Source: Candidatus Hodarchaeota archaeon
Lineage (GTDB): Archaea; Asgardarchaeota; Heimdallarchaeia; Hodarchaeales; YT1-039
Direction: 5' to 3'
Assembly (NCBI GenBank): GCA_016840025.1
Contig: JAEOTF010000453.1
Location: forward strand, 1-15,621
Length of the DNA stretch: 15,621 nucleotides
Under the pieces are notes generated by a model that saw only the letters and a list, made by a program, of their open reading frames with translations, made no database searches and had not been told where the DNA came from. Within the stretch, counting starts at the first letter, position 1. Each line of letters starts with the position of its first letter. A program made the position numbers and the translations under genes. Positions 1,348 to 14,554 of the stretch are shown in pieces.

Positions 1348-2229
1348 ATGGTAAACAGAGAAGCTCTGAATCAAGCCGGAACTATTGCAGTAGAAGTTTT
1401 AAGGCAGAGTTGGCAGGAAGTTCAACCTGGCGCTTCCATCTTAAGCATCTGCAAAAATGTTGAACGACGAATTCAAGACAAGGGAGCTCAACCCGCTTTC
1501 CCGCTAAATTTCTCAATAGATTCCTGTGCTGCTCACGATACCGCTGCTCCAAATGATAAACGGACAATCCACGAATCATGCATGGTAAAAATAGATATTG
1601 GAGTACATATAGATGGATTTATAGCAGATTGTGCTTCCACCAAATTAATTGGACAAATGAATGGAGAAAAGTTAATTAAAACTTCAAAAATTGCATTAGA
1701 AGCAGCTATTGATAATATTAGAGCAGGTATAACTCCTGGAGATATTGGAAAAGTAGTAGAAAGCACGATAAATAGCGAAGGTTTTCGTCCTATCGCAAAT
1801 CTAACAGGACATTCGATAGAGAGATACAACCTTCATTCAGGTATATCGATTCCCAGTATCGAAGGCCGAGGATTAAATGATGATCGTAAGTTAAAAGAAG
1901 GAACGGTTTTAGCTATCGAGCCTTTTGTTACTTACCAAGAGAAAAAAGGATGGGTAGATTATGCTCCTAGACCATTGATTTTTAGTTTAATGAAAAGTGG
2001 AAAGAATCCATTAAGAAAGGAGATTGAAAAAAGGTTTGGGTTTCTTCCATTTGCTTCAAGATGGATCTTTGACCTACGTCTTGATTCTAAATTGTCATTT
2101 AACTATGAAGGGCTAAGAAGTTATCCTCCTTTAATTGAAAAAACGGATGGATTAGTTGCTCAAAGTGAAGTAACTGTTATCGTCACAAGGAATGGATGTG
2201 AGGTTACTACTCCAATCTTCGGAATATAA
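1348..2229 (+). CDS. map: Methionine aminopeptidase, type II (archaeal)
   Basis: It removes the initiator methionine from nascent proteins in the cytoplasm with a dinuclear metal centre. The 293-residue length fits the archaeal type II enzyme. The full pita-bread ligand set is visible: D83 in 'KIDIGVHIDG', D94 in 'FIADCAST', H155 in 'LTGHSI', E191 in 'AIEPF' and E274 in 'QSEVTVIV'. The substrate-pocket histidine is H63 in 'AAHDTA', and a further histidine is H163. The insertion between about residues 210 and 265 corresponds to the helical subdomain that distinguishes type II from type I. ATG 1348 is the first possible start, because a stop lies two codons upstream in frame; no strong Shine-Dalgarno sequence precedes it. 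The next gene starts 14 bp after the stop, so the two are probably co-transcribed. Confidence 0.95.
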   Translation: MVNREALNQAGTIAVEVLRQSWQEVQPGASILSICKNVERRIQDKGAQPAFPLNFSIDSCAAHDTAAPNDKRTIHESCMVKIDIGVHIDGFIADCASTKLIGQMNGEKLIKTSKIALEAAIDNIRAGITPGDIGKVVESTINSEGFRPIANLTGHSIERYNLHSGISIPSIEGRGLNDDRKLKEGTVLAIEPFVTYQEKKGWVDYAPRPLIFSLMKSGKNPLRKEIEKRFGFLPFASRWIFDLRLDSKLSFNYEGLRSYPPLIEKTDGLVAQSEVTVIVTRNGCEVTTPIFGI

Positions 2230-2243
2230 GGCAAGGAAAACCG

Positions 2244-4364
2244 ATGTGCTCCATTATTGGCTTTTTTGGATTTAAGAATGCTATTGATAAAGCAATCGTC
2301 GGCTTAACTGAAATGCAGAATCGAGGACAAGATGGTTGTGGTATCTGTGGCGATAATTGGAAGCAATATGCAAAAAACCCTGAAGGATTACACATAAAAT
2401 CTTCTTCCACGCAAGTTATGGGACATTTACTTCACGCAATGATAAATGAGGTCCAACAACCGCTAATAAAGGATGATAAAAGAAAAATTGTAGCAAATTG
2501 TGAAATATACAATTGGAGAGAGCTTAGTCGCCGAATTAATGTAACAGTTCAAAATGACGCTGAACTTTTACTAGAAATATTGGCAAAACCCGATCTTACA
2601 ATTCAAACAGCTATTGAAATGCTATACGGTCCATTTGCATTTGCCTATTGGGAAGATGATCATTTGGTTCTCGCTCGTGACAAAATTGGAGTTAAACCAT
2701 TATGGTATTATGAACAAAATGGAAAATTCGCGTTTGCCTCGGAAAAAAGAGCCTTAATGAAAGTTGGAATTTATCCGCGAGAACTTAATCCGCGTATTAT
2801 TCTTGACTATAATATCAAAACAGGGAAACTTCATAGGTTTCCGCGTTCTTTTTTTTCAATAATTCCTGAATTAACGGAAAATTTAGATGAAATAGTTGAC
2901 CAAACAACTCAATTATTAACACATGCTGTTGAGAATCGTCTAGCTAATCATAAGATTGGAGTTTTATTCTCGGGTGGGATCGATTCCACATTAATTGCAT
3001 ATATTCTAAAACATAAAGGATTTCCTTTCTATTGCTATACCGCTGCAGCCTCTGAAAACGCGCAGGATCTACAGTGGGCGAAAAAAGTAGCAAAAGAGCT
3101 CGATTTTCCGTTGAAATATAAAATAATCAAACAGGATCAGGTTCCGACCTATCTCAAGAAAATTGCTCTTCTACTTCAAGATTCAAATGTGGTAAAGGTC
3201 GGGGTTGCTCTTACTTTTTTCCCTGCCTGTGAATTAGCCCAAAGGGATGAAGTGAAGTATGTTTTCTCTGGATTGGGTGCTGATGAGCTTTTTGGGGGAT
3301 ATTATAGACAAAAAATGAGCCCCCAAGTTAATTTAGATTGCTTATCGGATATTAGAGCGATGTACGAGAAGAATACAACTCGGGATGATCTAATAGCAAT
3401 GGCAAACCAACTTGAACTCAGAGTGCCTTTCCTTGATCATAAGCTCACAGAATATGCATTGCGAATCCCTGCAAAATTCAAAATTAATGAAGAAGAAACA
3501 AAGATCGTTTTACGTGAAGTTGCCAAAAAATTAGGTATTCCGCCCGAAATTGCACATCGTCCCAAAAAAGCGGCTCAATATGGAAGTAAATTCGACAAAC
3601 ATATTTTATATTTAGCCAGAATTGAGAATCAAAGTAAATCTCAATATCTCTATACTTTTTATCCTCAACCTATTCTCAATTTAGGAGCTTTAGTCAGTTC
3701 GGGAAAAGATAGCTTGTTCGCACTCCACCTGATGCGCCAACGCAATTATGCGATCCGTTGCTTAATTTCCCTCCACAGTCACAACCCCGAATCCTATATG
3801 TTCCACACACCGACTATTGAACTTGTCAAGCTGCAGGCCCGCGCCCTAGGTATTCCCCTTGTGTTTCTTGAAACCACAGGGGAAAAAGAACATGAACTCT
3901 ACGATTTACAAAAAGCTATTCAACAAGCGATTAATGACTATCAAATCGAGGGGATTATCACTGGGGCACTTTATAGTAATTATCAACGCACACGTATTGA
4001 ACACATCGGTGATCTGCTAGACCTGAAGGTTTTTAGTCCCCTGTGGCATACTGATCAAGAAAGGGAGATGCGGAAGTTACTTAGTGCGGGATTTGAATTT
4101 ATTTTTTCCAGTGTGGGATCCATGGGATTAAATAAGAATTGGCTGGGAAAAATTATTACCCATGCGGATGTAGATAAATTAGCGGTATTAAACAAGAAAT
4201 ATGGACTCAATATCGCTGGAGAAGGGGGAGAATATGAATCCCTGGTCTTATTCGCCCCTGGGTTTTCACATCGCATTCAAATCGAGGAGTATGAGATTAT
4301 TGAGGAAGATTCATATACGGCTAAATTAGCAGTGAGGAAGGCATTTTTGGAAAAGATAGCGTAG
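2244..4364 (+). CDS. Asparagine-synthetase-like / diphthine-ammonia ligase (Dph6) fusion
   Basis: The 706-residue polypeptide has three modules. Residues 1-195 are an Ntn glutaminase domain with nucleophile Cys2 after Met1 ('MCSIIGFFG'), 'NRGQDG' at 26-31 and 'NCEIYN' at 85-90. Residues ~225-455 are an asparagine-synthetase ATP-pyrophosphatase domain with PP-loop SGGIDS (243-248), 'GLGADELFGGY' (343-353) and 'ELRVPFLDH' (391-399). Residues ~475-706 are a complete second PP-loop ATPase of the Dph6/DUF71 family: SSGKDS (485-490), 'GALYSNYQRTRIEHI' (574-588) and the family signature 'GEGGEYES' (659-666). Dph6 makes the ATP-dependent last step of diphthamide synthesis on EF2, using ammonia. The fusion suggests that the N-terminal part supplies ammonia from glutamine, but independent asparagine synthesis is also possible. 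The canonical glutamine-binding Arg of AsnB ('HxRLSI') is not seen at the equivalent 'GHLLHAM'. The start is supported by 'AAGGAA' upstream. The Dph6 half looks richer in GC than the first half. Confidence 0.9.
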   Translation: MCSIIGFFGFKNAIDKAIVGLTEMQNRGQDGCGICGDNWKQYAKNPEGLHIKSSSTQVMGHLLHAMINEVQQPLIKDDKRKIVANCEIYNWRELSRRINVTVQNDAELLLEILAKPDLTIQTAIEMLYGPFAFAYWEDDHLVLARDKIGVKPLWYYEQNGKFAFASEKRALMKVGIYPRELNPRIILDYNIKTGKLHRFPRSFFSIIPELTENLDEIVDQTTQLLTHAVENRLANHKIGVLFSGGIDSTLIAYILKHKGFPFYCYTAAASENAQDLQWAKKVAKELDFPLKYKIIKQDQVPTYLKKIALLLQDSNVVKVGVALTFFPACELAQRDEVKYVFSGLGADELFGGYYRQKMSPQVNLDCLSDIRAMYEKNTTRDDLIAMANQLELRVPFLDHKLTEYALRIPAKFKINEEETKIVLREVAKKLGIPPEIAHRPKKAAQYGSKFDKHILYLARIENQSKSQYLYTFYPQPILNLGALVSSGKDSLFALHLMRQRNYAIRCLISLHSHNPESYMFHTPTIELVKLQARALGIPLVFLETTGEKEHELYDLQKAIQQAINDYQIEGIITGALYSNYQRTRIEHIGDLLDLKVFSPLWHTDQEREMRKLLSAGFEFIFSSVGSMGLNKNWLGKIITHADVDKLAVLNKKYGLNIAGEGGEYESLVLFAPGFSHRIQIEEYEIIEEDSYTAKLAVRKAFLEKIA

Positions 4365-10759: not shown

Positions 10760-13700
10760 GTGTTAATCCGTGATCTCGAGCTGGATGATCAGGTTAAGGA
10801 TATTTTTCTTCTCAAGGATGGAATTAAAGAATTATATCCACCACAAGCCACAACTGTTGCAGCAGGGTTATTGAAGGATGAAAATCTAGTCTTGGCAATC
10901 CCCACAGCTTCAGGAAAGACATTAATTGCCGAATTAGCAGCATTAAACCATTTTATGCGACAAAAAGGAAAAACACTCTATCTTTGTCCATTACGAGCCC
11001 TAGCATCTGAGAAATACGAGGAATTTCAAAGATTTGAACCCTTAGGACTTCGGGTAGGTATGTCGTCAGGAGATTTTGATTCTGATGATCGCTGGCTAGC
11101 TAGTGCAGACATTATTATTTCTACAAATGAAAAAATGGACGCATTATTACGACATAACGTAGAATGGATTAATTACGTCTCACTCATCGTAATTGATGAA
11201 TGCCACTTAATTGATGAAGTAGACCGAGGACCAACTCTCGAGATCCTAATTGCACGTTTGCGCAGTTTACTCCATAATGTTCAGATATTAGCACTGTCTG
11301 CTACGATCCGAAATGCAGATGAGATTGCGGATTGGCTGAATGCAAAGCTTATTCTCAGTGATTGGCGTCCAGTCTCACTTAAAGAGGGCGTGTATTATGA
11401 AGGAAGAGTTTACTTTAATGATGGGACGTCTATCGATGTTACTGATATTAATGCTGATCCCAAAATCAATCTCATTTATGACGTCGTTTCGCAGAATGCT
11501 CAGGCATTAGTTTTCAATTCATCGAGGAGAAATGCTGAAGGATTTGCTAAAAGAGTAAGGACGGTCATCAAAAGAAGTTTGACAAAAGAAACACTAAAAG
11601 AATTGAAGAAATTAGCTAAAGAAGTAGAGGAAACTGACCAACTTAGTCAAAAGCTTGCATTATGTGTTAAAAGTGGAGTTGCGTTCCATCATGCGGGTTT
11701 AAATGCCAGACAACGAGGAATTATTGAAAAAGCATTTAAGAAGAATCAGTTAAAGGTGATTTCCGCAACACCTACATTGTGTCTTGCACAAGGTACCCAT
11801 ATATGGTATGAAACTTCTGAAACTGAGGTCTCTATTTTTGATAAATCACAACCACTTCATGTTCTTTCAAACAACAAACTTATTCCCATGACTGCCCAAG
11901 ACATTCTAGATAATGGGAGTAACTCGCGTTTGATTGAAATCACTTCAATTTCTGGCTATTCAATTAGAGTTACGCCAAATCATAAGATGTATATCAAAAG
12001 AAGAAATCAAAAAATGACTATTCCTGCTGAAATGGTTAGGAAAACTGACAAAATTGCTACAGTAAGAAGATTAGACATTATTAAAACATTTTCGTATACT
12101 TTAAGTGACTTTGTTCAAGAAAACAATTTAAATAATTTTGACTGTAATTTTGACTCTAAAATTGCTTATTTCATCGGTTTAATGTTGGGGGATGGGTATT
12201 CTGGAGGGGAAATAATTAATAAAAGACTAACCTATAAGGGAAGTCCACTCTTAGTAAATTCTGATGAGGATATTTTATCACATGCTGAGGTCATCGCAGA
12301 TAAGCTAAATATTAGTTCTAAAAGAGGGGAAAATGTTTATGGATGTCCACAAATCCGTTTAGGTAAGAATAAATGGTTTAGGGAGTTTTTAGTTAGATGT
12401 GGGGTTGATGTTAAGGAAAAAAAGCACATTTCTGAAAAAATTTTGAATATGGACTTAGAAATTGTCTCTAATTTATTAAAAGGTCTTTTTGACTCTGATG
12501 GTTATACTGTTCGTAAAAGAGGAGTAGGTTTCTCTAGTATCTCAGAACTTTTGATAAAACAGGTTCAAAAGTTACTTCTCAGATTTGGAATTGTTTGTAG
12601 ACTTAGAAAGCGAAAGGGTAAACCTATGCAACTTCATACAAAGAAATATCAAACAAAATCCACTTATGAACTATTTATCTCTCAAAACCAATGTATACTA
12701 GATTTTCACAGATTTATTGGTTTTAATATTAAACGAAAACAAGTAGCTTTAGAGAAATTAGTAAATAAAATCCAATCGAACTTACTCTATATTTCATGTG
12801 AGGAATGCGGTTACAAAATATACAAAGATCTTTTTTCAGGTCGAACGAAATCACAAAAAGAATGGGGACAAACAAAATTCGAAGTTATCAACATACTTGG
12901 TAAAAAAGGGGAATTAGGTTCTCGAATTATTGCAAGTATTATTGGTACTGAGCCAAAGAAAGGAGAAAAACGACTTGATCATCATTATGAGTTGATAAGA
13001 AAAAGAAAAATTGGTCATATAAGCCAGACAGAATGGTTTTGGAGTTTAAATGAGATTGGTCAATGGATATATGACAATTATATAAGTTTAAAGGAACCAT
13101 TTGAATTAGTTTTCAAATTAAAAAACTGTCCACTGTGTGGATCTCAATTCAATAAGGTAACAAGAAAAAATTGGCGAGTGTCAGATTTAGATGAAGACAT
13201 TCATTGGGATCTAATAAGAGATGTAAAGAAAATTGTCGATAACTCTCATGTTTACGATGTTGTACTCCCAAATCACCCTCAAAATGATCATATGTTTGTG
13301 GCTAATGGATTCATTGTGCATAATTCTGCAGGATGCAACTTGCCTGCTCGCCGAGTAATCATTAGTAGCGTCTATAGATTTGAGAGAGGGAGTATGAAAG
13401 GCATCAAGGTCTTAGAATACAAGCAGATGAGTGGAAGGGCGGGGAGACCAAAATATGACCCTTACGGAGAATCAATCATTCTCGCTCAAAACCACTCTGA
13501 GATGGATGAATTAAGGGAGCGTTATATTGAAGCAAAACCAGAACGAGTAATTTCAAAACTAGCAAGTGAACCTGCTCTAAGAAAAAGTCTTTTAGGACTC
13601 ATTACATCGCATATTGTAAAAAATGAAGATGATCTCCTTGAATTTTTTGAAAAAACCCTTTACATCAAACAGTCTGAGATTGAATTCATTATAGACCGAA

Positions 13701-14554
13701 TAAAAAGAGTTTTACACTTTTTAAATGACGAAGAATTCATTAGTTATGACGGTTATGCATGTTCACCGACACCCTACGGCATTCGAGTAGCACAATTGTA
13801 TTTAGACCCACTTTCTGCAGCAATACTACGGAATGGAATTGATGTAGCAAAAAAGAAAGACAAAGATCTATTTACACCAATTGGCATCATGCAGTTACTT
13901 GCTACGACCCCAGATATGATCAATTTATATTTAAGAAAAAAAGATTGGGAGTTATTGGATGCAGTTCTAGCACAACATGAAGAAGAATTTTTAGTTGACA
14001 TTCCTGAGTCTTACTCAATCGCGTATGAGTCCTTCTTACAATCATTGAAAACAGCTTTACTCATGGAGCAGTGGATTGAAGAAACCCCTATGGAAAATAT
14101 TATTCGACAATTCAACGTAGGCAGTGGAGATATTGCGAGATATGCTGAAACTGCAAGATGGCTTTCATATGCTGGTGTACAAATTGCTAAACTCCTTTTT
14201 TCGAAGTATCCTGAATCTGAATGGCTCATCAAGGCTTTTATTGATCTCGAGCTTCGAGTTCTTCATGGAGTAAGGGAAGAAGCTATTGCATTATGTTATC
14301 TAAAAGGAGTAGGGAGAGTAAGAGCACGAGCCCTAATTAAGGCAGACATAAAATCAATTACTGATCTAAAGGAAGCTAACCCAGAAAAACTTCTAAAAAT
14401 ACCTGGTTTTGGACCAGAGATTGTTCGTTCTCTAAAAGAACAGGTTTCGTCAGAGAAGAAGATTTCACAAAACAACATCACCTTTGATGAAGAATTAGGG
14501 ACGAAAGAAAAAACGACTCAATCCCAGAAGGATCTCTTGGAATTTCTTTCGTAA
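10760..14554 (+). CDS. hel308: Hel308 (Hjm) superfamily 2 DNA helicase precursor with intein
   Basis: Hel308 is a 3'-5' helicase acting on stalled forks and recombination intermediates. The 1264-residue precursor shows Walker A 'PTASGKT' (48-54), DECH box (146-149), 'SAT' (180-182) and motif VI 'QMSGRAGRP' (889-897). Winged-helix and ratchet regions follow, with helix-hairpin-helix signatures 'LKGVGRVRARALI' (1181-1193) and 'LLKIPGFGPEIV' (1211-1222). A 515-residue intein (341-855) splits the motif that normally reads 'TPTLxAGxNLPARR'; joining L340 to S856 restores it and gives a ~749-residue helicase, the expected size. The last residues, 'QKDLLEFLS' (1256-1264), resemble a PIP box for the PCNA clamp. 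The start is GTG with a perfect upstream GGTGAT. Activity should depend on splicing, because the intein sits in a core ATPase/DNA motif. Confidence 0.95.
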   Translation: MLIRDLELDDQVKDIFLLKDGIKELYPPQATTVAAGLLKDENLVLAIPTASGKTLIAELAALNHFMRQKGKTLYLCPLRALASEKYEEFQRFEPLGLRVGMSSGDFDSDDRWLASADIIISTNEKMDALLRHNVEWINYVSLIVIDECHLIDEVDRGPTLEILIARLRSLLHNVQILALSATIRNADEIADWLNAKLILSDWRPVSLKEGVYYEGRVYFNDGTSIDVTDINADPKINLIYDVVSQNAQALVFNSSRRNAEGFAKRVRTVIKRSLTKETLKELKKLAKEVEETDQLSQKLALCVKSGVAFHHAGLNARQRGIIEKAFKKNQLKVISATPTLCLAQGTHIWYETSETEVSIFDKSQPLHVLSNNKLIPMTAQDILDNGSNSRLIEITSISGYSIRVTPNHKMYIKRRNQKMTIPAEMVRKTDKIATVRRLDIIKTFSYTLSDFVQENNLNNFDCNFDSKIAYFIGLMLGDGYSGGEIINKRLTYKGSPLLVNSDEDILSHAEVIADKLNISSKRGENVYGCPQIRLGKNKWFREFLVRCGVDVKEKKHISEKILNMDLEIVSNLLKGLFDSDGYTVRKRGVGFSSISELLIKQVQKLLLRFGIVCRLRKRKGKPMQLHTKKYQTKSTYELFISQNQCILDFHRFIGFNIKRKQVALEKLVNKIQSNLLYISCEECGYKIYKDLFSGRTKSQKEWGQTKFEVINILGKKGELGSRIIASIIGTEPKKGEKRLDHHYELIRKRKIGHISQTEWFWSLNEIGQWIYDNYISLKEPFELVFKLKNCPLCGSQFNKVTRKNWRVSDLDEDIHWDLIRDVKKIVDNSHVYDVVLPNHPQNDHMFVANGFIVHNSAGCNLPARRVIISSVYRFERGSMKGIKVLEYKQMSGRAGRPKYDPYGESIILAQNHSEMDELRERYIEAKPERVISKLASEPALRKSLLGLITSHIVKNEDDLLEFFEKTLYIKQSEIEFIIDRIKRVLHFLNDEEFISYDGYACSPTPYGIRVAQLYLDPLSAAILRNGIDVAKKKDKDLFTPIGIMQLLATTPDMINLYLRKKDWELLDAVLAQHEEEFLVDIPESYSIAYESFLQSLKTALLMEQWIEETPMENIIRQFNVGSGDIARYAETARWLSYAGVQIAKLLFSKYPESEWLIKAFIDLELRVLHGVREEAIALCYLKGVGRVRARALIKADIKSITDLKEANPEKLLKIPGFGPEIVRSLKEQVSSEKKISQNNITFDEELGTKEKTTQSQKDLLEFLS
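11780..13324 (+). mobile_element. Intein with LAGLIDADG homing endonuclease in hel308
   Basis: The self-splicing element spans 515 residues, from Cys1 ('CLAQGT', precursor residue 341) to the terminal 'NGFIVHN' (849-855), followed by extein Ser856. Splicing blocks are visible: block A at the N-terminus, block B 'RVTPNH' (403-408), block F from 'VYDVVLP' (831-837) and block G with His854-Asn855. Two LAGLIDADG motifs, 'FIGLMLGDG' (471-479) and 'LLKGLFDSDG' (572-581), define a homing endonuclease that would spread the element into intein-less hel308 alleles; the acidic residue of each motif is kept, so it could be active. Residues ~660-800 are an extra region with paired cysteines CEEC (680-683) and CPLC (790-793). 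The DNA looks more AT-rich than the flanking exteins. Confidence 0.93.

Follow-up and report, generated by a model that had tools for sequence, protein, structure and literature searches.

The window, the whole stretch of 15,621 nucleotides analysed here, carries one uninterrupted and intact frame of 706 amino acids, in which Pfam detected class-II glutaminase, Asn_synthase and Diphthami_syn_2 domains (Table 1); the middle, AsnB-like PP-loop domain is called AsnX below. The protein passed both TIGR01536 (asparagine synthase; 272.9 bits, cut-off 267.1) and TIGR03679 (archaeal Dph6; 268.7 bits, cut-off 197.3), and the Pfam and NCBIfam cut-offs thus confirm the preliminary description of a single frame with a Cys2 glutaminase, an AsnB-type PP-loop and a full Dph6. 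The AlphaFold2 model of the fusion (116 sequences, mean pLDDT 95.0, pTM 0.91) matched the structures of human asparagine synthetase within residues 2-479 and of PF0828 within residues 478-705. C2, R27-G28-x-D30, N85, E87 and D105 are retained, and the asparagine synthetase features present in the window are the Cys nucleophile (C2), the PP-loop SGGIDS and the Lys-466 equivalent, K441.

Table 1. Features of the fusion gene in the window, and class-I amidotransferase genes found beside dph6 at other loci
Feature	Position	Strand	Basis or remark
706-aa fusion: Ntn glutaminase, AsnB-like PP-loop (AsnX), Dph6	2244..4364	+	
Class-II (Ntn) glutaminase domain, about residues 1-200	2244..2843	+	Pfam GATase_7/GATase_6; structure rows ASNS, PurF, GlmS
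Cys2 codon, expected nucleophile after Met1 removal	2247..2249	+	Cys in 119/119 rows with a residue there
H61-L62-L63-H64 (GHxLH)	2424..2435	+	Segment corresponds to HERL in E. coli AsnB
AsnX, AsnB-type PP-loop synthetase domain, residues 205-470	2856..3653	+	Pfam Asn_synthase
PP-loop SGGIDS, residues 243-248	2970..2987	+	S243, D247, S248 in 116/116
Leu344, place of human ASNS Glu-364	3273..3275	+	Alignments with human and E. coli SGEGSDE
RPKKAAQYGS, residues 439-448	3558..3587	+	K441 aligns with Lys-466 of human ASNS RPKEA
Dph6 domain, residues 476-706	3669..4361	+	
Dph6 PP-loop SSGKDS, residues 485-490	3696..3713	+	
EGGEYE, residues 660-665	4221..4238	+	E660, G661, G662, E663, E665 invariant in 116
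Class-I amidotransferase genes downstream of dph6	L002:1134-1676, L003:4041-4667, L196:2859-3413		And 29 further genomes

The M24 peptidase gene (1348-2229, plus strand) ends 14 bases upstream of the fusion gene. We take this peptidase to be of the methionine aminopeptidase type; Met1 would have to be removed to expose Cys2. Elsewhere in the window, the plus-strand frame of a Hel308-type helicase (10760-14554), adjoining NurA and HerA genes, contains an intein that carries a LAGLIDADG domain (Pfam matches Intein_splicing and LAGLIDADG_3), and the open frame at 1-882 on the plus strand encodes a tandem Pro/Thr/Glu-rich repeat (PTLETTPEVAPEMIPSP) with no Pfam match.

The Dph6 part of the window protein retains all but one of the residues listed for the modelled EF-2 interface. 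The residues S44, Y45, E78, Y103, Q104, A149, E183, E186 and E188 of PF0828 are conserved at its modelled EF-2 interface, of which the EGGEYE motif is a part (PMC3541065). Their counterparts in the window are S517, Y518, E551, Y580, Q581, E660, E663 and E665, only A149 being different (Ser626), and S517, E551, Y580, Q581, E660, E663 and E665 are invariant across the 116 aligned fusions.

The database search with the window protein gave 3,310 matches, of which we considered the best 120, one of them the window's own protein. Each of the 119 others carries both domains; the named sources include Hodarchaeota (85% identity), Promethearchaeota, Methanolobus, Woesearchaeota and Nanoarchaeota. The layout had been presented as new and testable in the preliminary description, but it is already known, since the AsnB-DUF71 fusion was described in 2012 in Methanohalophilus mahii, Methanosalsum zhilinae and a nanohaloarchaeon, where the GAT-II domain was proposed as the ammonia source for both synthetase sites and a reviewer raised the role of the second PP-loop (PMC3541065). 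The Hodarchaeota-like host is a further member. New beyond the fusions and proposals of that source are the changes in the pockets of synthetase and glutaminase and the glutaminase decay in many members.

To place the fusion among related arrangements, we surveyed 196 genomes from the phylum to which the Methanophagales MAG G001 belongs; PF01902 was detected in 193 of them, and 167 gave a match to the N-terminal half at E 1e-15. The 51 genomes studied, many of which consist of many contigs, are the 49 best of these 167 by score together with the fused G136 and G067. AsnX and Dph6 are fused in one frame in 41 of the 51, and the Dph6 part is degenerate in two of the 41 (G061 and G054), where Dph6 is also encoded by a gene of its own. 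The halves are adjacent genes with overlapping longest frames in five genomes (G025, G103, G058, G035, G044), and in another five (G018, G106, G079, G121, G150) they lie apart or only a Dph6 remnant is found. Mapping against dph2 and dph5, also suggested in the preliminary description, detected Dph2 in 46/51 of the studied genomes and Dph5 above the cut-off in 46/51. AsnX is retained at three loci (L100, L105 and L098, in G061, G054 and G018) where the fused Dph6 part is either degenerate or truncated, and a separate Dph6 gene is present in each genome. Long frames in two Thermoplasmatota genomes (G240, G298) were rejected as fusions; judged by eye, they resemble GC-rich open frames around a stand-alone Dph6.

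The 119 fused best matches and the five genomes with adjacent genes show that the link between the two halves is maintained. The five adjacent pairs also bear on the suspicion that a frameshift or assembly error merged two neighbouring genes in the window, for which separate adjacent genes in relatives had been named as the telling observation. Such pairs do exist; they are natural variants, and the window shows no sign of error. With 119 of 119 best other matches from several sources listed as fusions, and with one continuous model of pTM 0.91, a merging artefact is extremely improbable, and we consider it ruled out by the 119 other fusions.

In the AsnX tree (FastTree, midpoint-rooted, sequences reduced at 75% identity), 119 tips of the fusion subfamily (support 0.86) stand apart from 10 stand-alone relatives (0.998), and the window protein groups with proteins of Hodarchaeota and Promethearchaeota MAGs (support 1.0). 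The backbone of the fusion family has weak support, and we therefore draw no direction of transfer. Among the stand-alone loci with the K-K-A-x-Q-Y motif, 10/16 (L076, L077, L085, L096, L121-L126) lie just upstream of gatC-gatA(-gatB), the tRNA-dependent amidotransferase genes, and the neighbours at L076 pass Pfam GatC, Amidase and GatB.

The AsnX motifs are strongly conserved. In the fusion alignment R439 and A443-S448 are found in 116/116 and K441 in 115/116; in the survey S243, D247 and S248 are found in 50 of 51 genomes (one gap) and K441, Q445, Y446 and G447 in all 51, and in the Dph6 part K488 is found in 44/46 and E660 in 39/46 (six gaps). The place of human Glu-364 is different. The human ASNS variants E364A and E364Q are inactive with ammonia, so that Glu-364 is required (PMC6748925). 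Position 344, which aligns with it, is Leu in the window and never Glu elsewhere in the family, neither in the 116 fusions (L 93, S 13, N 5, M 2, A 1, V 1, F 1) nor in the 51 genomes (L 29, S 15, A 4, N 2, I 1). The window protein thus has no Glu at the place of Glu-364, and judged by its residues AsnX is not a textbook asparagine synthetase, despite passing TIGR01536. Gln occupies the same place in the stand-alone archaeal AsnB-type proteins whose motif was read, in 9/9 of one set and in 8/8 of a second set with a canonical-looking glutaminase, and the search for the Glu motif in a further high-scoring Asn_synthase protein (G091:C62, L120) gave no pattern match. The missing Glu is thus wider than the fusion and no proof of lost activity, and it may represent an archaeal variant of a working enzyme.

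The glutaminase half is conserved in most fusions and decayed in many of the surveyed genomes. In the fusion alignment Cys2 and H61 are each present in 109/116 and H64 in 106/116; all eight checked residues are present in 99 of the 116 rows and at least one is missing in 17. In the survey, the set of C2, R27, G28, D30, H64, N85 and D105 is complete in 11/51 genomes and incomplete in 40/51, with Cys2 present in 30/51. Four of the split pairs (G103, G058, G035, G044) have Gly or Ser in place of Cys2, and the Syntrophoarchaeum protein P0241 has Thr and P0245 Ser. The window belongs with the intact group, as do most DPANN and Methanolobus members. These counts, together with the kept AsnX motifs, indicate that the family does not strictly require a supply of glutamine. 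The glutamine pocket of human ASNS contains Arg-48 (PMC6748925). The equivalent position in the fusions is uncertain because of a 2-residue gap in the alignment, and across columns 57-74 no column has Arg in more than 7/116 fusions, the window having none. The lack of a conserved Arg at the expected position suggests that glutamine binding may be unusual even in members that look intact.

We detected an unrelated glutaminase beside dph6 at other loci. In a Thermoplasmata MAG (L002) and a Methanospirillum MAG (L003), a stand-alone dph6 is directly followed by a class-I glutamine amidotransferase gene (PF00117). We scored this partner by a profile made from three such proteins, on the same strand with a gap below 400 bases, and found it in 27 of 40 further loci, which had been picked as likely, in 3/50 Thermoplasmatota loci and in none of the 30 loci of the best PF01902 matches in the phylum sample (L008-L037). 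The total is 32 genomes, including one weak partner that is cut short and lies 158 bases off (L190), and the proteins form 22 clusters at 70% identity with a median identity of 43%. Identification as the GMP synthase subunit A (GuaAa) was rejected, the eight of the 32 that were tested all scoring 36-81 bits against the NF001975 cut-off of 198, and 6/6 tested Dph6 partners of the class-I protein pass TIGR03679. The nucleophile position is Cys in 20/32, Ser in 11/32 and Ala in 1/32, with the His kept in 25/32. None of the 46 fused or adjacent AsnX-Dph6 loci has the class-I partner, 43 of them having at least 300 bases of downstream sequence. The presence of two unrelated glutaminases next to Dph6 speaks for amidation that depends on glutamine, and the loss of the nucleophile in both groups (12/32 in class I) indicates that glutamine is a dispensable donor.

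The idea of the preliminary description that the attached glutaminase supplies ammonia from glutamine is reasonable. The reading that we prefer, with a probability of a little under one half, is that the fusion is a glutamine-assisted diphthine-ammonia ligase, which brings its own ammonia source on a modified AsnB body. Met1 would be removed from the fusion, exposing Cys2, which would hydrolyse glutamine to release ammonia; the ammonia would then serve the C-terminal Dph6 site, at which the carboxylate of diphthine on EF-2 would be adenylated by ATP. The AsnB-like middle domain would most likely be a re-purposed body that bears the glutaminase and passes or gates the ammonia, and a second ATP-using reaction at AsnX is possible. 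The architecture, the conservation, the missing Glu and Arg, the naturally split versions and the class-I amidotransferase beside dph6 elsewhere are observed; that the glutaminase is active, that ammonia passes to Dph6 and what the middle domain does are inferred. Against a purely passive body, the catalytic motifs of AsnX are kept more strictly than such a body needs.

An alternative is that the protein is bifunctional, the N-terminal half making asparagine from aspartate and glutamine and the C-terminal half amidating diphthine, with the fusion serving joint expression or a shared ammonia pool. Its TIGR01536 score above the cut-off and the kept PP-loop, K441 and R380 are consistent with this, and so is the genomic context: AsnA is absent in 21/21 genomes tested, and among the PF00733 matches listed there is no other full-size Asn_synthase in 10 Methanolobus-like fused and five split genomes, so that AsnX could be the only route to free asparagine there. 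The Gln of the stand-alone archaeal AsnB-type proteins also weakens the residue argument against a working synthetase. Against a working synthetase, Glu is absent from position 344 in 116/116 fusions and 51/51 genomes and both substitutions of human Glu-364 abolish activity (PMC6748925); in addition, six fusion genomes have a separate full-length AsnB-like gene, though these read GQGADE. We consider a bifunctional enzyme rather unlikely. Another possibility is that the N-terminal half is no longer a glutaminase and is a docking or regulatory module (EF-2, ATP sensing, complex formation), with Dph6 using free ammonia. The proteins do persist where nucleophile or pocket has been lost, both in the class-II group (40/51 incomplete) and in the class-I group (Cys gone in 12/32), and there is no conserved glutamine-binding Arg. 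On the other hand, Cys2, RGxD, N85 and D105 are kept in the window and in most of its closest relatives and are not needed for pure docking, which makes this alternative improbable for the window protein.

Returning to the glutamine-assisted ligase, the class-I partners suggest a wider reading, which we offer tentatively: in many archaea the last diphthamide step may be carried out by a glutamine amidotransferase and not with free ammonia. Dph6 would have separately gained two unrelated glutaminases, the class-II type, fused or adjacent, on a modified AsnB body and the class-I type encoded downstream of dph6 in Methanospirillum-type genomes and some Thermoplasmata; the AsnB body would no longer make asparagine, and some lineages would later have lost the nucleophile and kept the shell. 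In 2012, it was from fusions that the source of the ammonia in archaeal diphthamide was deduced (PMC3541065). With two unrelated dph6-tied glutaminases, found in non-overlapping genome sets in our sample, and natural nucleophile-less versions of both, this question can be put to a direct test on small proteins. It also bears on Hodarchaeales, reportedly the only Asgards in which dph genes occur together with a single canonical EF-2 (PMC10307638): the Hodarchaeota-like Dph6 of the window is of the fused type seen in DPANN and methanogens, not of the RidA-fused type of many eukaryotes.

Among known systems, the AsnB-DUF71 fusions have the same three domains in the same order as the window protein and were given the same ammonia proposal (PMC3541065), the difference being the Hodarchaeota-like host of the window; the fusions of Methanolobus, Woesearchaeota and Nanoarchaeota are about 48-53% identical to the window protein. 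Compared with asparagine synthetase B (E. coli 1ct9, human ASNS 6gq3), the fusion never has Glu at the Glu-364 equivalent, is without the conserved Arg in the glutamine-binding segment, and has the KKAAQYGS motif and the fused Dph6. Stand-alone archaeal Dph6 proteins (PF0828, PH1257), unlike the window fusion, are without the N-terminal glutaminase and AsnX. Eukaryotic Dph6 is likewise joined to domains proposed as ammonia suppliers, but these are RidA domains at the C-terminus, whereas the glutaminase of the window fusion is N-terminal (PMC3541065).
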